Source of the DNA: Anadara kagoshimensis
Lineage: Eukaryota; Mollusca; Bivalvia; Arcoida; Arcidae
Assembly (NCBI GenBank): GCA_021292105.1
Contig: CM037860.1
Coordinates: forward strand, 16,448,698 to 16,512,697
Direction: 5' to 3'
DNA: 64,000 nt
Positions 1,908 to 33,000 of the stretch are shown one piece after another. The stretch's first letter is position 1, and each line of letters begins with the position of its first letter. A program made the translations under genes and the position numbers. The notes beneath the pieces were generated by a model. The model made no database searches, was not told the DNA's origin, and was given only the letters and a program-made list of their open reading frames with translations.

Positions 1908-2120
1908 GATTACATATTATACCAGTTATAATTTTACAGCACTAGACGGTCGTTTTGGAATACAATTCCTCATCGGTAGTGCATAGACCAAAATTATGAA
2001 ACCAAAATTGTTATTAAGATGTTGAGAAGATTACCAATTGACCATGTACCAAATTTGGCTAAGAAAATACTTTGAATGAGGGAGTATACCGTAGTTTTTT
2101 AACCATTTCAAATTTTTACT
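1908..2120 (-). repeat. Hammerhead-bearing interspersed repeat, copy 1
   Basis: This copy runs from a TACATATTATACCAG flank through the ribozyme to a body containing ACCAAAATTATGAAACC and AATACTTTGAATGAGGGAG. The same order occurs near 29.75 kb. Confidence 0.65.
1939..1982 (-). ncRNA. Decayed hammerhead ribozyme motif
   Basis: Same layout as the intronic copy, with perfect stem I (GCACTA/TAGTGC) and stem II, but core changes: CTGATGA is CCGATGA and GAAA is AAAA. It is predicted to be inactive. Confidence 0.7.
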
Positions 2121-2533
2121 TGCAGCAAAATTAAAGATATTGAATTCAAATTCAGTATGTAACTTTATGTAGTTGACCTACAAATAAAGTTTAACTTGGC
2201 AACAATTTCGATCATATTGTCAGCATTATGACCATTTTCACTTTTGTAACAGCTTTTCAGACTGTTTTTTTTATTTGTGAGATGTTGAATCCGTAAAAGC
2301 TGATGGGACGTAAAACAACTTTCAACCAAGCAACCATATGTCAGAGTAGTGGAAAATACCTATGGCTATTGCATAAGTGCCATTTAAGCCATTGCAGCTG
2401 TTGAAGTATCCAAAGATTGCTTTGATTAATCACCTATTCGAAAACAATATTTTGCTTTCATATACATATAACATTATATCAACTTAATATCAGATCATCT
2501 CTACATTCTGTAGTACAAATCCTTATCTGAATG

Positions 2534-4759: not shown

Positions 4760-7172
4760 ATAAAACGACAAAAAACATTGAATGCAGAAAGAAATTTATT
4801 GAGAAAAAATTTACAAAAATCATCCTGTCTCTGACATTTGACAATTGGTTCCAAAATCATTTCAAACATTTATTAAAATTTACATAGTTAAACCTGAAAA
4901 ACAAATCTTCATTCTGAAATAAAAGTTTATTTTTTGGCGAAAAATGTTGAAATATGTATCTTGAAATTTTGCATGCCAAATGTTTGATTTAAATTTTTTA
5001 ATGTGTTCTAATTGCTAAATGTCAAAACAATGGCTATAAAACATATTTAGTTTTCAAGTCGTCGTCAGAATATTACTTGTAAACGATGGAATGACTTTAT
5101 AATATACCTTTTCCCAAGGCCTATCTCTAAATTTAGAGCTTAATTTCCGAAGGGACAATAAACATTAATTTTTTTATTTACTAGTAATTCAACTGTTTCA
5201 AAGTGAATTTTTTAATTCATCTAAAATCCGGTGTTCGAAATTGCCTTTCAATTAAGGCCAATTATGAACACAACAAAGTCACAAAGGTATAGTTTAAAAT
5301 TTTGTTAAAGTGAGGTATATTGTTTTCAAGGATTAGTTTGAATCTTTTTATACGTTGTATGTGAGTGACTTGTGAGTTTATGTGATTTGTATATGTAGAC
5401 ACCGTGATGTGATTTGACACATGTGTTATGTGTCATACCGAAGATCGATTTTGTAATGAATTTACTTTACTAATTCGGACGATATGACTGGCTGTAATGA
5501 ACAACCGCTTTTTTGTAACATGCAATTGTTCTAAATGGTTAAGGGAAGTAAAATATCAGAAGAGAGATTTTGAGAGTTAGTTTAATATTCTTAATTTGTG
5601 ATAAGCAATTTGCATAATTGGTTGATGGGTGTATAATTTCTGAAGATAGATTTTGGGAGTTGAATATCCTTACAATATGTGCGAAAAAATGTTGAATGAT
5701 GCCATGGACTTAAACGCCATCCGAAAATTATGTCATAATGAAGCTTAAATTACAACATCGTTCACTACACTTGGTTGTAAAACAAGTCTGATGGAACTGT
5801 TTCTTTAAGTTTTCCAGTATTAATTCTAGTTACCTACGTGCCTTGAACATTCCATAGTTACTAGATGAACAAATCCGTTATTGTTCTGATCAACAAGAAA
5901 CATTTTTTGTCAACATCTAAAACCAGTGTATAGATAAAACGAATGGCAAGCTTTGAAAGGGGATATAAGTGTTTGTCGATTATGGGGCTTTAGAAGGGGA
6001 TATAAGCCTTGTCGATGATGGGGGCTTTAGAAAAGGAATTTACGCCTTGTCGATGATGGGAGTTTAGGAAGGGATATACGCCTTGTCGATGACGGGAACT
6101 TTAGAAAGGGGTATAAGGCTTTGTCGATGACGGGGGCTTTAGAAGGGGATATACGCCTTGTCGATGATGGGGGCTTTAGAAGGGGGTATACGCCTTGTCG
6201 ATGATGGGGGCTTTAGAAGGGGATATACGCCTTGTCGATGATGGGAGCTTTAGAAGGAGGTATAAGGCTTTACCGATGATTGGAGTTTTGGAATGGCGTA
6301 TGCCTATGCAGTGAGCTTTGAAATTGGAGATGATGGGAACAATGGTAAAAAATTTGCGAAAAAGAAGATATTTTCCCCATAGAGATAATATCACAAAGGA
6401 TCATCATTAGTGTTAATGGACACCATAGTCAGTAAATGTAATTGATAAACAACACTGTACATAAAACGTCAACTTACAGCAGAGGTAAGTTTTGTCAAAA
6501 TGGTGAAACATACAATAAGCTGTGTTACAAGTGTAGTGAAATGTCTTAACATATGTTAATCTATTTTGTGTCTAAATTCATATACAAGACATATCAAGAA
6601 TTGGGCATATTTTATTTTAGTTCTATATAAATTTTTGCACTTCTTACATTGACATAATTGGTCTGAATATCTAGTTGGTGTTTACGTGTATATGCTTGTC
6701 TCTTTTGTGATTTCTATATATATTACAATCAAAGCCACAATATAAACAGTTTGTCAACAAAGGGATTTAAAATTTATAACACTTGTCAGAGACAGGCTTC
6801 AATAAGTTTACTAAGCTGTTATATGTATTATTGTACAACATTTTACATAAACACATACTTGTTTTACAATTGTTTCAGTTTTAATATGTTCAATTTATTT
6901 ACTTTTAATTTTCATAACAAAATTTTAGAATATTACTGTAAGTATGATCGGGAAATTTCCGTATAGATTCGCAAGATTAAACCTTCGAATTTAACATTCG
7001 CAATTTTTTTAATTTAACATTATTGACTAATATTTGCATTGATGCATTCTATGACGCAAAAATAAAGAACGCAAATATTAAAATGAAATGTCGTCACTCG
7101 CAAACATTAATTGATGCGAAATTTCCCGATTTACGCTAAACAAATTTCACCACTGTTACACAGTCATATCGT
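4760..7172. other. No gene seen
   Basis: AT-rich sequence with the 37-bp minisatellite; no motif-bearing open frame on either strand. Its right end may include the 3' end of the TSP1 transcript. Confidence 0.6.
5951..6293. repeat. 37-bp minisatellite, about 9 copies
   Basis: The unit is GGGGATATACGCCTTGTCGA followed by TGATGGGGGCTTTAGAA, with 36-38 bp variants. The outer copies are more degraded than the central ones. Confidence 0.9.
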
Positions 7173-7178
7173 TTTATT
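7173..7178 (-). terminator. Poly(A) signal AATAAA
   Basis: AATAAA reads on the minus strand 188 bp past the stop of the distal terminal exon. It is the first canonical hexamer I see after that stop and would end the longest transcript. The AT-rich setting makes chance hexamers common. Confidence 0.4.
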
Positions 7179-7365
7179 TTAATCATGTACAGTAGAATAA
7201 TAAATTATATGTGGCCACAATAGTTACGTGACATGTAGATTAAACCCTGAAATAGAAAGTAGCATAAAGGCATAGATACACAGTCATGCAAGATCTAACT
7301 ACTTAAGCTTAGGCCGTGAACAAGACTATTGATACAAACATTTAAACAATGCTTGCTACTTATAG

Positions 7366-7466
7366 TTACGGAACAATCCCGTTGATCAAGAACGAATCCC
7401 AACATTCAACGAGACCCACTGTTATCATCCCGCCCTCTGTCACGTTTCCGTCATTATCATTACCAC
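7366..7466 (-). CDS. Exon 35C: alternative terminal exon, distal
   Basis: A TTCAG acceptor in phase 1 is followed by 33 residues ending ITVGLVECWDSFLINGIVP and a TAA. VGLVECW corresponds to IRPLECYG of exon 35A. This version has a longer linker rich in Asn, Asp and Gly and a hydrophobic tail too short for a membrane span. A canonical poly(A) signal lies 188 bp downstream. Confidence 0.65.
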
Positions 7467-7674
7467 CTGAATGAAAAATAATACAACATTCAATATTTAT
7501 ATAAATATTAGAAAAATAACATGCAAATATTCGACCAATACAATTTACCATCACCACGAACATGCGCAATCCAAAAAGTTAAATTTGAAAATTGGTAAAT
7601 TTTCTGTGTACCATTTTACATAAAACATGCATTGATCAGCGCTTCAATGGGGGCAGTATTGCCGCGCCTGCGCA

Positions 7675-7748
7675 TTATTTTGCATCAGCATTGCCATGAC
7701 AGAAAAGCCGTCCTACCGTCCCTGCTCCCTGTTCCTCTGGTTCATTAC
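7675..7748 (-). CDS. Exon 35B: alternative terminal exon
   Basis: A CTACAG acceptor in phase 1 is followed by 24 residues ending VGRLFCHGNADAK and a TAA. The pattern hydrophobic-x-x-L-x-C-x-G matches that of exon 35A, so it could complete the domain with a different C-terminus. It is supported by splice site, phase, position and motif only. Confidence 0.6.
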
Positions 7749-8398
7749 CTGTAGACAAGAAAATTATAAAAAATTATATTTACATGCGATATTGTATGCT
7801 ATAGGTCACCAACTTGAAATGTCCATGAGCCGAAGTTTGAATTTTTAAATTGTTCATTATTTGAACAAGTGCAAATGGCAGTTTGCAAAAATTCAAAACA
7901 CGGCAGATGACGATCATTTGCAAGAAGGTAGTTATATGGTTATATATAAATAGAGAGAGAAAAACGGTATAAGTAAGCGCAAAAGGGGAACTAACTCTAA
8001 TAAAATAAACCGCTACAAATAAACTTTTAAGGTAAAAGCATAAATTCGCAGCAAAAGGAAAGAAGCAAGAAAACGCACGCAGGGAATAAGTTAATCTAAT
8101 GATTATTATGATGGAAAGAAGAAACAACTAGCTAAGGGAAGGGTTTTAAAATGCAGAAAACATTCATGCAAAAATTTAGATTATCCGTTTTGAAATTTTT
8201 AAATATTTTGAGTTGATTAGGTATGGTGGGGTTACATATGCTCCATCTCTTTTGAAGCAGTGATGAAAGGTGATATTGAAGTGCTGTACAAACACAGAGA
8301 GAGATGGGGCATGTATAAGCCACACTACACCAGTTTCCAATGAATCCATTTGTCTTTATATTTTTATAAAGTTTGTAAATTGAAATGTTGGGATCTCC

Positions 8399-8463: not shown

Positions 8464-11084
8464 CTTAATAAAGAATAACAACAATATTAATAGTCTGAAA
8501 AATATAAAAATAATAAATGATTTTGAACCTTTGTACATTTCATTTTGATCTTAAATACAAAGTGCTGTATCTGGAAACATGTCTGTTTTGCGATCACAAT
8601 TTAAACAGAAATTTTCAGTAAAGCCTAAAAGCAACTATGATTATAGCATCTGTTTTATATGTTTTTATTTGCGCTTGCTTGCCATTCAACTTAACTCGGG
8701 CAAGGTTAGGGGATCTGATTACATACTATGCGGTGCATGGTTCTCAGTTTTGAATTGATTTCATGTATGTACCTGGTCTCCGTTTTAAATTGATTTCATG
8801 TATGTACCTGATCTCAGTTTTGAATTGATTTCATGTATGTACCTGGTCTCAGTTTTAAATTGATTTCATGTATGTACCTGGTCTCAGTTTTGAATTGATT
8901 TCATGTATGTACCAGGTCTCCGTTTTAAATTGATTTCATGTATGTACCTGGTCTCAGTTTTGAATTGATTTCATGTATGTACCTGGTCTCAGTTTTGAAT
9001 TGATTTCATGTATGTACCTGATCTCAGTTTTGAATTGATTTCATGTATGTACCTGGTCTCAGTTTTAAATTGATTTCATGTATGTACCTGGTCTCAGTTT
9101 TGAATTGATTTCATGTATGTACCAGGTCTCCGTTTTAAATTGATTTCATGTATGTACCTGGTCTCAGTTTTGAATTGATTTCATGTATGTACCTGGTCTC
9201 AGTTTTGAATTGATTTCATGTATGTACCTGGTCTCAGTTTTGAATTGATTTCATGTATGTACCTGGTCTCCGTTTTAAATTGATTTCATGTATGTACCAG
9301 GTCTCAGTTTTGAATTGATTTCATGTATGTACCAGGTCTCCGTTTTAAATTGATTTCATGTATGTACCTGGTCTCCGTTTTGAATTGATTTCATGTATGT
9401 TCCTGGTCTCAGTTTTGAATTGATTTCATGTATGTACCTGGTCTCAGTTTTAAATTGATTCCATGTATGTACCTGGTCTCAGTTTTGAATTGATTTCATG
9501 TATGTACCTGGTCTCCGTTTTGAATTGATTTCATGTATGTACCTGGTCTCAGTTTTGAATTGATTTCATGTATGTACCTGGTCTCCGTTTTGAATTGATT
9601 TCATGTATGTACCTGGTCTCCGTTTTGAATTGATTTCATGTATGTACCTGGTCTCAGTTTTGAATTAATTTCATCTATGTACCTGGACTATATCAAGCAT
9701 ATTTTTAGAATCATCTTGTTTCATTGTTTAGTTCACTTTAGAAGTATAACATCTTTTTATTGTTATGTTGCAAACATTCAGATGCATATTCAAAAGATGA
9801 ATAAATTTATTGCTTTCTGCCAATATTCACTTATGAAGCCAAAACCCTGATGATTCGTCAGGCTTTATTGAGTTCATTCAAACCTGTCTATAAAGGACAC
9901 CCACGGGAACCTATAAAGTGGCCTTTATGGGTAGGTTGCTATTATATATATAGGTTCAAATAACCTGAATCAAGAGCGATTGGGATAAATTTTACTTGCC
10001 TGATTATGATAATTAAAATGCCCTAAAACCCTGTGAGGAAATAATACATATAAAGGCTTCGTTTTTATCTAAATCTCTAACTTAAATCAAAATTGTGAAA
10101 TGCAATGCAGCATTAAATTTGATTTATTTCAGTATGCTTAGTGAGAAAAAAATCTCAAGAATGTCTTTTGAAATAGGTATCTATCAATAAAATTCAAAAT
10201 TATGATTTATAAATTGTAACTCTGAAATGTAAAAAATTATTAACTAGTACATATGTATTAAACATTAAGCTGCTATAAGCAACCACCAAAGCGCCATTGG
10301 AAAATTGTAAATAGCATATTTGTACAAGCTTCTCCCGCCTTTCCATTGGCTTCATCATACTGAGATGTTGAGAAAAGCTTCAGCACATGATATGTTCCAT
10401 TACAATACTGCTTCATTTGCTTTTGTATATGCCTAGGGGCATAAAGTAGTTTACTTAAGAAATGATATTCTGATCATGATATTTCAAGGGGCAACGCAAA
10501 ATAATGTGGCGCGTGCCAAATACAAAATGAAGGGCAAGGCCACGCTATCTTGCATTACCCCTTAAAATACCATGAGTAGAAATGTCATTTCTTATATTTA
10601 CATTTTTTTCTTTTATTAAATATTTTGTACCCATATTTGTTTCATCCTCTTGGCACAATTCTACCTGCTCATAGGGTTTTTGCCATGCAAATCGGCGTAT
10701 CTCACATGACCACGTGACCCCCGGGGACATGGCGTCATCTTGCGGGAAAATTGATACGCATCAAGGGCCATGGCCCCAATTGTCTTTCACGGGAATTGCA
10801 ATACAATTGCTTCTGCATGTTTCGTCGAAGGGAGATACAGTCATATTGTAAATATCATTGTATGCAGTTGTGTCCAATTGTCCTTTGAGATCATTCCATA
10901 CTTGCTTACTAAACGAGCATCAAAATTATCAGTTTTTAATTCATGTAAACTTTTTCTAGTCAATCAATCTATCATCTTATTTAAAGATTTTAAAATATGA
11001 CACAGACTCGTAAAATATTTGATCAGTGAGATGTTCAATTGAATTTGAGAATCGGTTGACCCACACCGATATTAACAGCTTTAA

Positions 11085-11116
<32 letters not shown>

Positions 11117-14100
11117 GACACATCAAATGCTATATTCATCAACAAAAAGAAGCTTATATCATAATAAGCAGACTTAAATATACCTGTATGTGAATCTGAA
11201 AGAATTGCATATTATAGCAGTTAACCTTTATCCATGACAACATATATAACGATTTTAAACTGAAGTAAGTACATGTATATTGTAGATGAAACACATGTAA
11301 TTTGTTAATGTGATCTAATGATCGAACAGAAAAGCTTGCTTGGTTGGTTGGTTGAACGTTTTTGTTTTTGATATTCGAGTTTTATTTCAAGTTTTTACAA
11401 AACTTCATTGCAGTATTGCGCATTAATGGTGACCTTTCGAGTTCTAGTATATTTGCCTGCAATGTTGCAGAAAAACATCCCATACCGCTAAGTTCATTAT
11501 ACTTTCATTGAACACTTTCTTACTTGCGAGTGGCTAGAGTGAAACCACGAACAAGAAAGAAGAAACGAAGTAATTAAGAAAATTTACACACATAAGTGTC
11601 TCATTATAAAACTCACGACTACTGAATGAACACTAAATCTAAAAAATGTATGTCCAATGGTTCGGTCAAAGTACTTTTGGTACGCCCAAATCAGCCTCCT
11701 GTTGTTAGTCAGTAGTCCAAAACGTACAATATTTAACTAATTCAAACACACAATAACAAAACAACCCGCTATAAATGTACTATCAACACGTATATTTTAT
11801 TCCGATATGTCAGACACGTTCAACCGGATTGAATATTAACTGCTTATCGGTGGGTTTTTTTTCAAAATAAATCTTCTAATTTAGAAAAATTACATTGGAA
11901 TACCATGTACTTTACGATATCCACAGATAAAAAGACCACGCTTCATAAAAACACAGCCTCAGAAATTTAAAACGCGCGATACACACATGTTTAGTAACTT
12001 TGAATAGACACAAAACAAAATATGCTCAGTGATGTGTTTCTAATGTATTGGTGTCACTTTGGTCCTTTTTTAACCGGAAGTTCCATAAGTAACGCATATT
12101 CGATTTTTTTTAAATTATCCTTATTTTGCCAGAGGATTCCTCATTATAAAACAAAATGGGTGCGCCATCATTTTTTAAATATTTAGCTAGCTAAACAGGA
12201 GGTGCTTACCCTTCCGGAGCACCCGGCCTCACTTCCCTGGTGGAAATTCACGGGTCTATTCTAAAGTTTTTAGTTTGCTTCTGGATTGTGATTCGGACAT
12301 GGATTAGTATGTTTGTTTTTTATTACAAATTACACAATTTAAAACCTACCAGTATCACCGGCAAAGAACCCTATGATTGGCAAGTCACTCTTCTCAGTAA
12401 CATAACCGCTATCTTCTCTCCATTCAGCATCATTTATATCACAGTTACAATATTTAGTAGGGTCGGCACAGGAACTATCCATTCCGCATGCGCATTTATA
12501 ACTTCCGGGAGCTGCTCCAGGGAAATAATCTGCCGGTATGTATTGATCAATTCTCTTTAATGGATTTGCACCTTTACGTCCCACCCAAAATGTAGTCCAT
12601 ATGGAATTGTCTCTTGGATTATGTATAACAGCGCCTTTACATTCCCACTTCAGAAACTGTCTACAGCTTCCTGATGCATCAACAAGCGCCTCCGTGGCCC
12701 ATCGTGAGATGTTATATGTTATCACCATTTTATATTCACCTCTTCCTTCAAATCCAAGAACACGTTCACGTTCCTCCTTATTGTGTCCTAAATAAAAATT
12801 TCAGTTAAAACAACTATAGGCAAACGCAAAAGTTATCTTTAAACATCGTCGACAATGCGAACATAGATGACTCAAAAAGTCCACATGTGTAGTCATTAGA
12901 CATACTGTATCGGTGATGCATGTCGAGAACATTTACATATTGTAATGATCCGTTTTGATGAATCAAAACGATAAAATTTATACAATATTAAAAAGATCCA
13001 TCTAGTCGATGAATGACTTTTTGCAATGCATATAAATGTATTCAGAAGTCATTCGTAATGCAGGATCGTAAGCGACCCTATTATCGGAATTTTCAATAAA
13101 ACATTTTTTTCAAACTGGTAGAACAAACTGCCAGAACCCATTTCTATTTTTGCCTAATACAGTGCACTATAATCTAAGATTCTCTTGGAGAAGGAACAGT
13201 CACTACCCACTTCCAAGTCTTGGGGCAAATTCAACAGAAAGTGCACGATTAGCTTTGAACTTGACCTTGCCGATTACTTTATTAAGCTTACACGTTTGAT
13301 GTTACTGAAGATACATACCGACAATTGTAACTCCGATTCCATTCTGGGCCTCCATATCACAATAGACCATCAATTTGTCATTCCTTTGCTCTGGGTCTAT
13401 CTCGGCAGGTCCGCTGTCAATCATACCAAGATTCTTCAGATCTGTGCAATGTTTTGCTGCAATAGACAATGCAAATTATTTAGATTTCTATTGGAATATA
13501 ATATAGCTATCGCAACAGTTTACATATTATATGGTGTCAAAAAAAGAATGTACGTCAACATTAGCTTTCCCTGCAGGAATAGTATTTTACATACTATACA
13601 AGTTTTAATTTTACAGCATTAGACGGCCGTTTCGGAATACAATTCCTCATCAGTAGTGCTTAAACCAAAATTATGCAACATTTGATGTATGCTAAAAAGT
13701 AGTCACTGCAAAGTCTATTTGTACTATTTGTACTATCATTATTACAGTATTCAATACGATTTATTATAAATACAATGTGGTATACGAATGAAATTATGTT
13801 TCTGATTAATAATTAAAAAATAAAATTTGTCAAAAGATGATATTGCTTACAAAACCGTTTGATCGAATGGTGTAATATATATTTGTGTTTGAGTTGTTTC
13901 CCCTTCAACAGTACCTGATGTGCAGTGAAAATTTACAATTCAGGGGAGGCAATTTATTTCATTTAAGATTCCTCATTAAATGTTGTTTTGTAGATATGTA
14001 CCTGAAATAATGTGTGGCATCTCCAATATCAATATATTTTAATAATTGTTGAATTGAATAAATGTGTTGAAATCCCATAGCTTTACTCACGGTAAGAATC

Positions 14101-18000: not shown

Positions 18001-21000
18001 CATTATCCTAGTGAAAAGATTCACATCTGTAAATTCAAACCATCAACAAGTGATACAATTATCTCCAGAAAAAAATCAAAAATTATCCATCACCCCAGTG
18101 ATAAGTCTTGTATTGTTTTGAGCCTACCTGGGCAATTAAAAGTGTTACATGATTTAGTTCCATTATTTGATCCAGCACACGGATTACCTCCATTGAACGG
18201 TCCCACACAGCTACGAGACCTGAACTGAGATCCTCCCCCACAAGACACAGAACATTCACCCCACGTTGACCATTCGTTCCAAATTCCATCAACTAATACA
18301 TGTTCCAAAATTAATATTTTACATAGTATAAACAAGTAAAGCTTTATGTATTTGAAAATCAATCAGTCTGTTATTGTCTATAAAATAGACTATTTTACGA
18401 CCATGTTTATCTACTGTTTGTATGTTTTTAGAATATGACATATTTGCAAGTTAGTAAAGGATAGTGATGATTGAAATGATTAAAGATTAAATTAAGTTAG
18501 GTAAGTGATTTATCTTCGGATCCTTTCTATAAACTTGTAAATAGTTTTCAAACGCTTTTTAATTTTAAAGAACAATAGGCGGTTAGAATGGCACACATGT
18601 CCTAAATATGATCTTTCGGTTTAACTCCATTATTTTACTTCTAAAAACTAAAGTCAAATTAATGACACGCCAAATAATGTGACTGGAAAGTAACTACGTT
18701 GTGTAATGCTTGCCGCCGTGTGGTAGCTAGTCACGAAAATGTAAGGCATGTCAAAAGTAATGGTTATATTAGTTACAAACTGTTAGATACTCCATGTCAA
18801 TTATTCAACAGCTAAAGCAATGCATGGAAGTGACATGGTTCTTTTTATATTGGCTTTGTGGTCAATTGCTACAAATAAAACATTTCATTCGGTAGCGTAC
18901 GGGTAGACCATATATAGATATTACACTTTTGTATTGCACATCATCAAAGTAGACTGATAAAACAAACATATTACCTGGACATGGATTCTCATTACAAGTT
19001 CGGTTATCATTGAAGTTGCCATCACATTCAGCGCCACCATGGAAAGGACCAATACATGATCGGTTTCGCCACTGTATTCCTCCGCCACAGCTGACGTCAC
19101 AGTCATACCAATCTGACCAATCAGTGAACTTGCCATCCACTATAATGAATTCATCAGTTATAACAAAGTGTAACAAAACTCATTTAAATACTAATGATTT
19201 ATGAAAAATTACCATGCATTTCCTTTTTTTGCAAGTGAGCAATATCTCAGTAATGAAAATTTTTATTGAATGTTATTCGTGATGAATGTTTATAGCAATG
19301 ATAAAAAATCTAAAGATCCGTCAAAATATTTGTTGAATATAAACTGTCTGTATTAAAATACGTTGAAATATAAATAATCTATGTTAAAAAATAAATCGCT
19401 GATGTTGTAATATAAATTGAAATATAAAATGCTATACAAAAATAGTAAGAATAGACTTATAATGTTATGTTATTAAAATGATAAAATCGCTATGGCATTT
19501 AGAAACTGCAAGACACTTAAGAATAAAATATGCACTTCAATTCAAAGGTATGTTTCTTCTGTAACTAAAATCAGCTTATATTTATATTATAGTCACTAAA
19601 GCAAACATTAAGTGCAACGACAAAAATATATATAAATAGAATATTGTATATTGATGATATCTGTATTAAACATGTTTAAAAAAATCACGGTTATAGTGAC
19701 AGTGAGATCTATGCTAGTCTACCTTTCTAATTGTGAAAGCGAGGCATGTGCAGGGGGTCATATAATCATATTTTATATCCTTCAAACATCAACATATCAA
19801 TATTAATTTCAAAATACATCAAAAATGGTTTCCTGAAAAAAGAAAAGATTTAGTTTCTGTCTCTGACCCGGACAGGGATGTGTATTGCACATCCTATCAT
19901 CTTCATCACTTCCAGAGCAGTTCTTTCCACCATGGAATGGTCCTATACAGCTCCGGTGCCTGAGTTGTGTTCCACCGGCACAACTTACACTACACGATTC
20001 CCATTCCTTCCATTCGTTCCATACACCATCAACTGAAGAAAATATTCAAGTTTATTTAATTGAAATTTCAAAAATTAAAAATGACATAGTTTTACATTTT
20101 TTAATTGAACTTGTATTATACAGTTAATTCCGTTTAAATTTTGTCTGAAATGTACATATTTTCATTGCACTTTCAATCATTTTAAAACAAAATGATACCA
20201 AAAAATGGATTGCTCAAAATATTCAACATTCCCAAACAATGTTCAGCACACAATTAATGTTTTCATTGTAATAGTCGTATCATAATGTAAAGAGTAGATA
20301 TAAAATATAAATGTGACTTTTCCTACGCTCGTAAATGACATCATTTCATTATACCTAGATAGTAAATACTTACTTGGACAGGGATGTTCATTACATGACT
20401 TATGGTCTGCATTATCATCAGAGCAATTGGCGCCACCATAGTATGGTCCATCACACTCTCTGTATCGCCAGTGTATTCCGCCGCCACATGTAACGTTACA
20501 ATGTCCCCAATCAGACCATGTTGCCCATACTCCGTCAACTTAAATATTAAGATTTATGACTTGTTTAAAACAATCCCTTGAAACAATCAAATGTCTTGAA
20601 GTGAAAACAGAATTGAAAGAACGGTCCAAAAGATTTTTATAAAAAGACATAATTTCAGTTTGAACATTAATTGTTATGGGATTTCAACTGAAAAGCTAAG
20701 CTTGCCAAGCGAGAATTCTGTTTAAATCAGCTAAAAGGTTTAATTTATACATTATTTGAATATGAAACATAATGATTTTAAGAAGTGTGTACTGTGATCA
20801 ACAAAATCTAATTAGAACTCCAATGACCAAAATAGATGAAATTAAGCTAAGGAAATACTTTGCATGAGGAATTATACCTTAGTTTTTGAGTATTTTTAAG
20901 AGTTTAAGTGTCAGCAAACTAGACATTAGTATATTTTGACAATACAAAACAATATGTTGACTATCATTATGCCGTTGATGACAAGGTATTTATTTTATAT

Positions 21001-27000: not shown

Positions 27001-30000
27001 ACAAAGTTTTTTTTTAATTTCTTAACTATATTTCAACATACAGCCCACAGGCACGCAAATCAGCCGCAGAATGGCACACTATCATTGCAGCTATGATAGA
27101 AATTAAAGCAACTGTTTACATACCCGGGCATTTCCTTGGCATACACGATGTTGCTTCGCTGGATGATCCAAAGCATTCTTCGCCTCCGTCGTATGGTCCA
27201 TCACATTCTCGTTTCCGATAACGTGTACCGGACCCGCAACTCACATCACATGATGACCATGTTTGCCATGTTAGCCATTCTCCGTCAACTAAAGAAAAAG
27301 ATTTGCTTTGCAACTACAGAAATATACCTTGCTAAGCACATGACGAACAATGCGTGAATTGACTTAAGCGACTAATAAGCAGAAAAGCACATATATATAC
27401 AAAATACAAATATTCAAATAATATAATATTTTATCATGTTAGCATGTATGTATGCGTGCCCTGGGTCACATTTATTTGAGAATCTATAGTACTATAGTCA
27501 AAACCTGTGCAATAACACCAGTGTTACAAGGTTTACCACTTTATAATCATTTGTCCCAATGCGTTTGTCTTTTTATCCCTTGTCAACTTTTTATTACTTA
27601 CGAGTATATTGTTTTTGTGTTCTTGGTTGCAGTGGCTAATGAAAAGTACATGATTTGCAACATCAAATATCCTCCATCTTTTTCATATTTCTTTCTCTTA
27701 TTTTGTAAACTTAGCGAAATTATGTTTTTTTGTGTACATAACATGATATACTTAAAGCAAAGATCAGTTAAACTTGCAAACAAAGCAATCACTAGCGCTA
27801 AGTATTATCTATACTTTTCATACATGTCTCACTATTTTAATAAATCACCGCCGTATGTGTATAAGATATAAAGATTATTCTAAATATATATGATATATTT
27901 ACACAGACACAATGTGCATATAAAGATATAAATAAACCATCATTATTTTATAAATAAAAAATTAAAAAGAATGAATGTAATGATATAAGAATGATTTAAG
28001 CATGAAACAAAAACCAAATCCCCTTTTTCAAACACCTTCGTATTTTGATTATGGCTATTTAATTTTTAAAAGATGCGCTTTTTTGTTACTAATTCGGCAT
28101 GATTAATAACCTTATAAAACACTATGAGAGAGCAACTATCAATGTTACAATTTCGATTCAATACGGCCCAATTGTGACTTTTCAAGATTTCAACTTTGAC
28201 TTGAAACTTATTCCTGAAATAATTCTTTACTAAATGTACATTCATTTTGATGCTGTTTTGCCCTTGACAAAACAATGTGTTGTACATTTGCAGCAACGAC
28301 ATGACTTAAACAATCTGTATTTAAATAGATGTGCAGTGTTTTGTTTTTTTATTTTATTTTTTATTTTATTTTTGGCGTTTTTTGTGATATCGGTATATTA
28401 TGTCATCAATATGCCTATTTTACCCGAGACTAAAAACTATACCTGTACTGAATAGTGTCCACATTACATGTGTATTATTTGTTCTCACAAAAGGATATTT
28501 GGCTTTAAATGGTAAATGAAAAGAGTATCATATATGTGTTTTCACAAACAGCAGCAGTTGCAAGACTATGGGCAATTTCTAGCTTTCTTTACTGTATGAT
28601 CGAACTTACATATACATGTATAGAAAAAAATTAGTTAAAATTGCATTTCAAATTTTTTGATGCAAAATACCATAAAAATATCCATTTTCTGGCTTAATCC
28701 CATATGGCTACTTTTTTGGAATTATCAATGCTAATTGCCTGTGGAAAACACAATCACTATTATGATAAATAAAGTGATATAACATTTTTGCGGTGATGAT
28801 AACATGAAACTACTATAATGATATAAAATAAATCAAGTTTCCATTCATTCTCCACAACCTTACCAGGACAGCTAGATGGGTTACAATGTTTCGACTCTTC
28901 GTTTACTCCTTCACATGGCTTTCCTTCATAGAAAGGTCCAGTACATGTCCTATTGCGCCAGGTGAGTCCTCTTCCACACGAGCGTGAACACTGAGACCAT
29001 TCTGCCCATTCCTCCCATATTCCATCGACTAAAAATATGATTAAAATCCGATAAAGATGTCTTCAGATCAACACTATACGATTCCTCATATCATTTATTA
29101 TTTTATCATCTGTCTACTTCTGTGGTATTTTTAATAAATAAGATATATTTTTCTTTTGTTTGGGTTTGTGTTAAAAAAGAGACGTTTCCCCCAACTTTTC
29201 CCTGTTTTAATTGGATTGAAATTTTCATAATAAATCTATTTGTTTTTCTTACCTGGACAGTAAAAGGAATTGCAAAGTACAGTCTCGTTCACAGCTCCGT
29301 CACACTCTTCGCCCCCAAAGAAAGGCCCATTACATGTACGATTTCTTGTCTTGGTGCCATTACCACATGTCATAGTACAGTCGGTCCAATCGCTCCATTC
29401 TACCCATATGCCATTTACTATAAAACAGATGTACATACATAGCAATTACTTTTCGCTTCGTTTCATGGAGATAATAAAAATGTTTCCACTTGTTGATCAT
29501 TTTTTTTATTTATCAAAAATGTAAATTAAAGAAGACGATTATAACAAAGTTCAGCATTTATGTCAATTTTTATAGCATAAATCATAGACAACATCTATTT
29601 TTATTTTGCTTCGAGTAAACACTCTATGGTTTAAATAGTACTATTTGGAAAATTAACCCAGTTAAATTGTATGTGATAAAAATGTGATGACTATTATTTT
29701 TATGGAACCTGTTTAATTTTGCAGCACTAGGCAGTCATTTAGGAATTACATATTATACCAGTTTTAATTTTACAGCACTAGACGGCCGCTTCGGAATACA
29801 ATTCCTTATCAGTAGTGTTTGGACCAAAATTATGAAACCAAAATTATTTTGAAGATGTTGAAAAGCTACCCAAAGGACCAAAATATATTTTATCAAATTA
29901 AATTAAAGAAATACTTTGCATGAGGGAGTATACCTTAGTTTTTGAGAAATTTCAAATTTTAACTTTTAAGAATAAGATTCTTCGACCAAAATTATAGAAA

Positions 30001-33000
30001 TCTACAGAAAAATAGGACCAAAATTTATTTTACCCAATCCTCCTGACAAAGTATTTGAACGATATAGCATACCTTGTTTTTTAGCAATTTTAAAATTTAA
30101 AAATGTGAATCTAACAACACTATGTAATATCCCCTGGGTTAACGATTTTTTATTTGGGATTCTTATTCACCTGCAGAAATAATAGCCCAGTTGATAAAAT
30201 TGTTATGACTAATTTTAAAAAACCTTGTTTCAAAAAAATTCTATGACTTACTTGGGCACTCATGGGTGTTGCATGTTTTAGAATCAAGGTCATCTCCAGT
30301 ACAGTTAGCACCGCCATACTTGGGTTCTTCGCACGTACGGGTTCTCCACATCATACCTCCGCCACAACTAACATTGCATGTTGTCCAGTTAGACCACGCC
30401 TCCCAGTAACCATCAACTAAACAAGTACAAGGATGGGGGGAGTGCAAACACACAAAGCAACTACAAAGGCACACAAATATGATGGACCGTCGAAATGTGT
30501 TTTTCTCAAAGTTTTAAATTAATCCAAAAATACAATAAATGTCATTTTCGTAACACATCGACAGTCCTTTCAATGCTAATTGCTATACCACTCGGTGCAA
30601 AGGTCAGAGGCTTATACTGTTAATTGAGATAGACCAGAGAAAAATATTCAAGTTTTATGTCTATAAATCCAAACGAATTAACTAATCAAGTTCATCATGT
30701 GCATTTCTTTTGAAATTACTCCTCAATACTTTGCCATGAATGAATTATTAAGAAGAACCATTATTAGACTACATGATGAAGGCCAATCTAAAACAATGTG
30801 GATGGTCAAAGTATTCATAACGTGACGCGTTACTTTGCTCCGTTATTACCTCATTAAACAGTTACAAAATAAAGCAAAGCATCAAATGATACGTTGATCA
30901 GATATTTACTGAAACTTTAAGTAACAGGATTTGATAATTTAAATAACACTATTAGTTAGTTTCACAGTGCATGATTTCCTAAACTACAGTTACTTCCGAT
31001 ATATCATAAAATAAAAAATAAAAATATAAAATCACTGCAAATACACACTATCTAATCTATATAATATATCTACAATGCATTAAGATATATATTCTACATT
31101 CAAAGAAGAGAATAGCGCTGTAATTGTACCCTTGATTGAATATGAGTAAGCAGTGTATAAATATTTCTACAGAAAAGATTTTATTATACAAGTCCGTCCA
31201 GAACGTTTGGCTGCTTCTAACTTTCTTTTTCGGTTAACTAGCTCTCCTTATTTCGGTCACTCTGCAGCCGATCCTACAAGCCTTTTCATACGTTCAGTAT
31301 TAACTTTCGAAAGTTTTGTTCTAGATGTTTTTAGTTTTTTTTAATCTTAAAATCTTTTTTCCCGTTACATCAATATGTGATGAATGCCCAATTACAATAT
31401 GATTACAATAGTTTTTTAAAGATTATCCCTGATGTTTTGAAATCGTTTGACGCTAATTTCTAAGATATTTTTACAGACCTGCATTTTATTTATCAAACCT
31501 GTGCAACAGTTCTGTATATTAGTGTTCACAACCAAATGTACATTTTAATGCTATCTCTTCATATTGAAATAAGCCGTACACATTGTGTATATATTCTGTT
31601 TTATACCTGGACAGAAGTGAGTGTTACAGTCTCTTATCTCGTCCCAGGCTCCTGAACAGTTCTGTCCACCATAATACGGACCATCACATGATCTGTTTCT
31701 GTTCTGTGTACCATTACCACAGGTCAGCGAACACTCTGTCCAGTTTGACCAATCGGACCACACACCATCGACTACATAATAAAACGTCAAGCTTAAGTTA
31801 TAGGTACGTGCAATCACAAACAAACATATTCCAGGCCATGTTCATACCATAATCCAAAAAGCAATGTAAAAACTGGAAAATCTAAAAAACACGTAAACTT
31901 CCACCATATCAGTGTGCTTCGGGTGCTACGTAAGGGAAAGCATCTCCTGTTTAGTTATCTACATCAACCACGTGTGAAATTTAAATCGGGACCCCAAGGC
32001 ATTATCCTATAGCTGATACCATGCAATGTCTTGAAATTCCCAAACTATAAAATATACATGCAGTAGCAGAAACCAAGATTGTATGAATTCAATTACATTG
32101 CACTAAAGTACCAAATATAAAGGTATGAAATATCACATTATTACATACGCAATCCAATGGTTTAGCCATGCACTAAGTTAATTATTACGTATCAAGAAAT
32201 TTTAGCTGAGCAAATGACTATGGATAGTGAAAATTTAACATACTTGGACAAAAGTGCATGTTGCAGTCACGTGACTCTATGGCAGATCCGTTACATTCTA
32301 ATCCTCCAAAATAAGGTCCTTCACACACCCTGTATCTACTTTGTCCTCCTCCTCCACATGTGACGTTACACTCATCCCATTTAGACCAAGGCTCCCATTT
32401 ACCGTCAACTACAAGTATTCATTGTTTATACAATGTAAATATAAAGTGACAAATTTGAAAAAATGCATTAAACTTTTGTTTATTATTATCTAAGTTTACA
32501 TCTTATGATTTATCGAACACAATTCCTGGTTTTTTACTTTATCATGTTCCTTAAAGATTTGCACATTTTACTCTATTTTACCCAACTAGTGCAAGTTCGT
32601 AAATTTTAATGGATTCCTATGTCAGTGTCTTCCTACTGTATAATACAATTACAAAGCCAACTTTTCATAAATTGTAATTAGAATTGACTTGACAATTACA
32701 AACTCATATTATACAATTATAATTTTACGAAAATATGAATCAAAAACAAACATACTAATCCATGTCCGAATCAAAATTCAGAAGCAAGTAAAAACTTTGG
32801 AACTGACAAGTTAGGTTAGATACGTGAACTTCCACCAGGAAAGTGATGCCGGGTGCTCCGGAAGGGTAAGCACCACCTGTTTAGTTAGCTACACCCGCCA
32901 CGTGTGTAATCAAAATTGTGTGAAAGGAACATGGAACTATGAAACGTCGAATATATCCAGGACAATCCTGGACACAGAGACATCAAACTTGTATTAAATA

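Follow-up and report, generated by a model that had tools for sequence, protein, structure and literature searches.

An intronic hammerhead motif and its host gene

The question raised by this locus is whether a hammerhead ribozyme motif, lying in an intron of a gene of the bivalve Anadara kagoshimensis, acts in the expression of that gene or is a passenger left there by a mobile element. The window, that is, the whole stretch of DNA analysed, comprises 64,000 nucleotides of contig CM037860.1, and the coordinates given below without a locus name refer to it. Three features define the locus:

13457..14090, minus strand: putative intron of a TSP1/fibrinogen-like gene holding the copy, proposed from splice signals, in-frame joining and the TSP1 and Fibrinogen_C exons
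13616..13659, minus strand: type I hammerhead ribozyme motif, with an intact core and an A.C mismatch in stem I, matched by Rfam Hammerhead_1 and by the family model R1
13621..13622, minus strand: cleavage site predicted from the position of GTC in the motif, where the C at 13622 would precede the cut and a 5'-OH is expected at 13621

On the minus strand, the putative intron has a GTGAGT donor at 14090 and an acceptor (...TTGCAG) before 13456. The TSP1 exon was joined in frame to the following exon across this intron (14090-13457), and that exon, together with the next open stretch, matched Fibrinogen_C with 25.3 bits (cut-off 22). The intronic, sense placement of the motif before a fibrinogen-like exon, as described in the initial annotation, appears to hold on this gene model.

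Sequence inspection and a pattern search located the core pieces on the minus strand at 13653-13647 (CTGATGA), 13633-13630 (GAAA) and 13623-13622 (TC). Stem II (GGAAT/TGT/ATTCC, 13646-13634) has five base pairs and a 3-nt loop; stem III (CGGCCG, 13629-13624) is minimal and palindromic, GGCC closing its two base pairs; and a single A.C mismatch is present in stem I (AGCACTA/TAATGCT). These parts and their coordinates are those reported in the initial annotation, and the cut predicted from the motif sequence, between 13622 and 13621, agrees with the position given there. The stretch 13616-13659 (minus) has the CUGANGA...GAAA...UH core, the three stems and the opening at stem I of a type I hammerhead.

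A cmscan of positions 13560-13720 placed Rfam Hammerhead_1 exactly at 13616-13659 on the minus strand (23.6 bits, E 7.8e-4). The initial annotation had made its reading depend on a covariance-model hit above threshold: the position was recovered to the nucleotide, but the score stayed below the gathering score of 34, and with the generic model the reading formally failed. No Rfam match at the gathering score was obtained over the whole window, and the bare core pattern occurred in it once, not beyond chance (1.44 expected). A family covariance model (R1), built from 51 other copies of the repeat described below and leaving out the window copy, scored this copy 96.1 bits (E 5.6e-25) over 13602-13670. 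This score, together with at least 64 matches elsewhere in the genome, removes a chance occurrence of the motif, and its assignment to the type I hammerheads of the retrozyme kind proved right.

A 339-nt repeat family

A search of the organism's own genome with the surrounding 421 bp returned at least 64 further places, nearly all of them matching over about 93 bp around the motif and most with identities of 92-96% (best 40 of the 2477 candidates scored); several sat in rows at 339-bp spacing. Positions 13587-13679 are a 93-bp piece of a 339-nt repeat. Genome-wide, the core pattern was present at 9,378 places (4718 + 4660), compared with 432 (315 + 117) for the reversed pattern. On contig C1, from which 67 of the first 68 core-pattern places listed were sampled, 64 of the 67 belonged to the repeat, the others being loci L056, L058 and L064. 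The copies compared came mostly from this contig or from the best own-genome matches, and represent a selected, not a random, sample of the genome.

Arrays of the repeat contained from 2 to at least 12 units and were homogeneous, with mean unit identities of 98.8-99.8% within three arrays and a mean of 96.1% between arrays (range 92.8-99.7%, 117 pairs). The family thus has the tandem units, about 170-400 nt long and each bearing one type I hammerhead, that define retrozymes, the window copy itself being a 93-bp fragment, and the GC content of the unit from locus L030 (33.9%) is within the low-GC range (<50%) of these elements. In the predicted circular fold, the unit RNA was not unusually self-paired (-59.0 kcal/mol versus -60.2 +/- 4.4 for shuffles; 62 of 100 shuffles were at least as low). 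Judged on its sequence, the repeat fits the published animal non-LTR retrozymes, and no pair resembling LTRs was noticed beside the dispersed copies. Two variants were also observed: a row of retrozyme pieces at L048:1233-1792 with an apparently shorter unit of about 240 nt and an inner deletion, and a sublineage with a shortened stem II (CTGATGAGGAATTGCCGAAA; four exact places), represented by L008 and by places on contigs C9 and C17.

The copy in the intron is one of five pieces of the family in the window, identified by comparison with the L030 unit (blastn, local alignment):

13587..13679, minus strand: 5'-truncated retrozyme copy of 93 bp, running from unit position ~282 across the next cleavage site to ~36 nt beyond it, also recovered by the own-genome DNA search
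13587..13590, minus strand: 3' end of this insertion (...TATGTAA), coinciding with the 3' end common to the family and placed by anchored extension (locus L009) 35 nt beyond the cleavage site
29744..29972, minus strand: second retrozyme copy, sharing this 3' end, core damaged (CTGATAA, GAAG), R1 score 90.7 bits at 29761-29829
1909..2133, minus strand: third retrozyme copy, also sharing it, core damaged (CCGATGA, AAAA), R1 score 84.1 bits at 1925-1993
20822..20944, minus strand: retrozyme relic, unit positions 117-248, without the ribozyme
30014..30100, minus strand: retrozyme relic, unit positions 159-247, without the ribozyme

All five pieces (1909-30100) lie on the minus strand, which is that of the TSP1 gene, a number too small to be set against chance.

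A shared 3' end and scattered 5' ends

Each copy was extended in both directions from the cleavage site against a reference unit (anchored extension). The C1 set comprised 51 insertions, after removal from the 64 of four segmental duplicates and of nine places that matched for more than 60 nt onward (chiefly inner array members). A shared 3' end was evident, as 33 of the 51 insertions stopped 35-43 nt downstream of the cut (median 38), and among the 21 best conserved ones 18 did so. The remaining 18 of the 51, mostly older copies whose ends may have been blurred by decay, ended at 8-34 or 48-49 nt. As an exception, the match at L078 ran on for 325 nt, and at L082 it reached the edge of the stretch examined. 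The 5' ends, on the other hand, were scattered from 50 to 1660 nt upstream of the cleavage site, and in none of the 51 did this distance come as close as 3 nt to a multiple of 339; three of the 51 insertions crossed the upstream cleavage site. The arrays at L016, L019, L028, L030 and L063 shared the 3' end position with the single copies.

Exact words taken from successive parts of the unit, in order towards the 3' end, occurred genome-wide 642 times (unit positions ~73-100), 2,558 times (~182-209) and 4,236 times (~8-35), with no occurrences of each control; this gradient is partly due to mutation, because the words are different sequences and one of them contains a CpG. A 33-mer crossing the shared 3' end was found at 844 exact places (control 0). 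Of the first 43 exact tail words on C1, inspected by eye, about half had no intact ribozyme pattern alongside, and these may represent copies of very small length, first units that were truncated, or a different element whose tail is identical.

Flanking duplications of at least 6 bp (6-8 bp) were detected in 10 of 47 copies, when 2.3 were expected from 2162 cross pairs; a looser first test gave a weaker excess (5/53 copies versus 1.3 expected). None was found for the window copy, nor for most of the 47, and where present they exceed 4 bp, as is the case in retrozymes. The 3' flank opened T-rich, the first bases being T in 36/47 and 38/47 copies, which may reflect the target or the template. 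Neither poly(A) nor a 3' microsatellite was seen by eye among the 62 junctions listed. The limited open-access literature searched yielded no earlier report of a shared internal 3' end with scattered 5' ends in retrozymes, a signature that is apparently unreported, and none of a hammerhead satellite in bivalves. Ends of this pattern are countable in every genome, and they indicate a defined start site.

Ribozyme fold and the host gene

The stem I mismatch of the window copy is also present in L012 and in one unit each of L016 and L017, and therefore marks a sublineage and not private decay. Through it the hammerhead fold loses about 6 kcal/mol, its energy being 0.2 kcal/mol in the window copy versus -6.0 in perfect copies. 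The minimum predicted fold of the window copy was not the hammerhead and was no better than those of shuffled sequences (z 0.00); the hammerhead fold lay 10.5 kcal/mol above this minimum, with a median of 10.6 for the 51 copies, so that little can be concluded in either direction from the nearest-neighbour model. Across these 51 copies, the ribozyme stems showed no covariation (paired cells 93.4% versus 93.3% when shuffled; score 0.052 versus 0.050), as is expected of copies of one young family that decay freely, for which the test has little power. The suggestion of the initial annotation that the copy is perhaps inert is reasonable from its sequence, and the palindromic ACGGCCGU makes a dependence of cleavage on dimers possible. 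The invertebrate type of hammerhead is described in PMC7229834 as having a two-base-pair stem III with a tetraloop, and invertebrate retrozymes as cleaving as monomers.

Could the motif cut the pre-mRNA of its host gene and shift the choice of isoforms? An intact core in sense orientation, within an intron and before a fibrinogen-like exon, would favour such a role, as would the fact that this is the sole intact core among the three ribozyme-bearing copies in the window; conserved intronic hammerheads of amniotes are cited in PMC7229834. The copy is nevertheless one of thousands in the genome; it is truncated on the 5' side, its insertion end is ordinary, and its fold is weakened by the stem I mismatch and is no better than that of shuffles. 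The self-cleavage with an effect on the gene that was put forward in the initial annotation found no support, and a function in the host gene is highly improbable. Most likely, the retrozyme copy is a passenger in the host intron and, as far as the gene is concerned, an ordinary finding.

Proposed mechanism of spread

The intronic motif is very probably the 3'-terminal fragment of a non-coding, ~339-nt non-LTR retrozyme, which spread by reverse transcription from a fixed internal start with 5' truncation. According to this model, tandem copies would be transcribed and their hammerheads would cut the transcript into unit-length RNAs, which would then be closed to circles; unit-length RNA circles from retrozymes are known in other animals (PMC7229834). 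A reverse transcriptase would begin at a fixed internal position some 38 nt beyond the cut, probably at a nicked AT-rich target, and would copy backwards round the circle, stopping at random. Short runs would yield 5'-truncated fragments, the window copy among them, and long runs tandem arrays. Since the ribozyme adjoins this start, it is retained in nearly every copy of more than about 80 nt.

One shared 3' end combined with random 5' ends is the trace left by a reverse transcriptase that begins at a single place and stops early. In addition, the copies cross the cleavage site without a stop, so the template was joined there, either as a circle or as an uncut multimer. Homogeneous arrays with a common 3' end fit several turns round one circle, and uncut linear multimers could equally have served as template. 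Published work leaves open the route by which retrozymes re-enter the genome and the enzyme that carries them (PMC7229834, PMC7761336); in the model of PMC7229834, circles are copied by a primed reverse transcriptase, with primer and enzyme left open.

Two other explanations of the repeat were weighed against this mechanism. One takes the arrays for ordinary satellite DNA, spread by recombination, and the dispersed pieces for satellite that broke off. The arrays themselves, with 2 to at least 12 units that are alike within each array, speak for this origin; breakage, however, would scatter both ends, whereas pieces and arrays have one 3' end in common and random 5' ends, and the short flanking duplications exceed chance, all of which makes this origin very unlikely. 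The other, insertion by a LINE of a linear transcript whose own 3' end lies 38 nt beyond the ribozyme, is somewhat less improbable but still unlikely. A fixed 3' end with 5' truncation is also characteristic of LINEs, and the insertions resemble theirs in both respects; yet in the arrays the unit continues past that point, 844 exact words cross the end, and the 62 junctions listed had, by eye, no poly(A) or 3' microsatellite. Reverse transcription from a fixed internal start remains the preferred reading.

Comparison with known systems

The repeat resembles the metazoan non-LTR retrozymes of Cervera and de la Pena (2020; PMC7229834) in its single type I hammerhead per unit, in its unit length (339 nt versus the reported ~170-400 nt), in its low GC content, in the coexistence of tandem arrays and scattered copies, in duplications of more than 4 bp where present, and in its copy number, which is in the thousands, as in the mussel (~5000). 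In contrast, the shared internal 3' end with 5' truncation found here is not described in the text consulted of that account, whose main text lacks the word 'truncated', the published elements are documented by circle and cleavage data and the present repeat by its sequence, and their circular RNA is reported as highly self-paired, a property that our unit does not share to an unusual degree. The repeat is also similar to the hammerhead satellite repeats of the newt and axolotl (PMC7229834), tandem repeats of 330-353 bp with a type I hammerhead and a short palindromic helix III, but its helix III has two base pairs with a tetraloop, as in the invertebrate type of the same source.

With the Penelope-like elements that carry minimal hammerheads (PMC11167929, PMC3846280) it has in common the tandem arrangement, the AT-rich targets and the short duplications, which are of 8-10 bp in those elements. 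The enzyme of a Penelope-like element starts reverse transcription inside its RNA, past the ribozyme (PMC11167929). In the Anolis element the start is 111-118 bp into the ORF and the cut at 26, that is, about 85-92 nt past the cut and not 38. Also unlike these elements, the retrozyme repeat codes for none of the proteins looked for, and head-to-head pairs, typical there, are rare in it. The window copy (93 bp) and the unit (339 nt) are both too short for a Penelope-like ORF with reverse transcriptase and GIY-YIG.

Penelope-type enzymes as candidate helpers

A Penelope-type enzyme might carry out target-primed reverse transcription in a rolling-circle manner, from the fixed start about 38 nt past the junction of the circular RNA. 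We hold this proposal only tentatively, as somewhat less probable than its opposite; if it were true, the insertion ends would record circular templates and the length of each run. The genome contained 83 GIY-YIG places. In one family of four loci (L101, L102, L107 and L104) a minimal hammerhead lies behind the GIY-YIG frame, with the full motif in the first three and one core change in L104, and the sequence stops 38 nt beyond the cut, at an AT tract; the distance is the same in the retrozyme. A stretch of this family was present at 53 exact places in the genome. We call such loci Penelope-like on the basis of endonuclease, ribozyme and arrangement. A second GIY-YIG family (L103, L105), which stops about 98 nt past the cut, speaks against a helper of this type.

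The likeness between Penelope-type and retrozyme tails was not beyond chance (74 and 447 of 1000 shuffles), and the retrozyme unit and the GIY-YIG loci had only short similar stretches at chance level. Nine GIY-YIG loci gave no Rfam match at E up to 1 and none with the family model R1, whose matches fell in L060. Twelve head-to-head pairs were counted among the 53 places of the GIY-YIG/hammerhead family, nine of them within 1 kb (e.g. C14:27124089-27124252), whereas the 100 retrozyme places listed included four within 4 kb and one within 1 kb. With evidence both ways, Penelope-like helpers for the retrozyme are possible.

Two further candidates were rejected. The longest GIY-YIG frame (L099) has its domain well inside the frame, and the 4.6 kb examined there contained no hammerhead-like motif. 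A second hammerhead-like family (CTGATGAGATATCACCGAAA, 8/21 places), considered as a possible Penelope ribozyme, turned out to be a satellite in which, by eye, nothing matched the cleavage site. The CTGATGAGATATCACCGAAA loci consist of 177-178-bp satellite arrays in both arms of large inverted repeats, with the hammerhead-like string in a few units:

L059:1383-3105 and 6337-8055: 177-178-bp satellite arrays
L060:1686-3936 and 5248-6790: 177-178-bp satellite arrays
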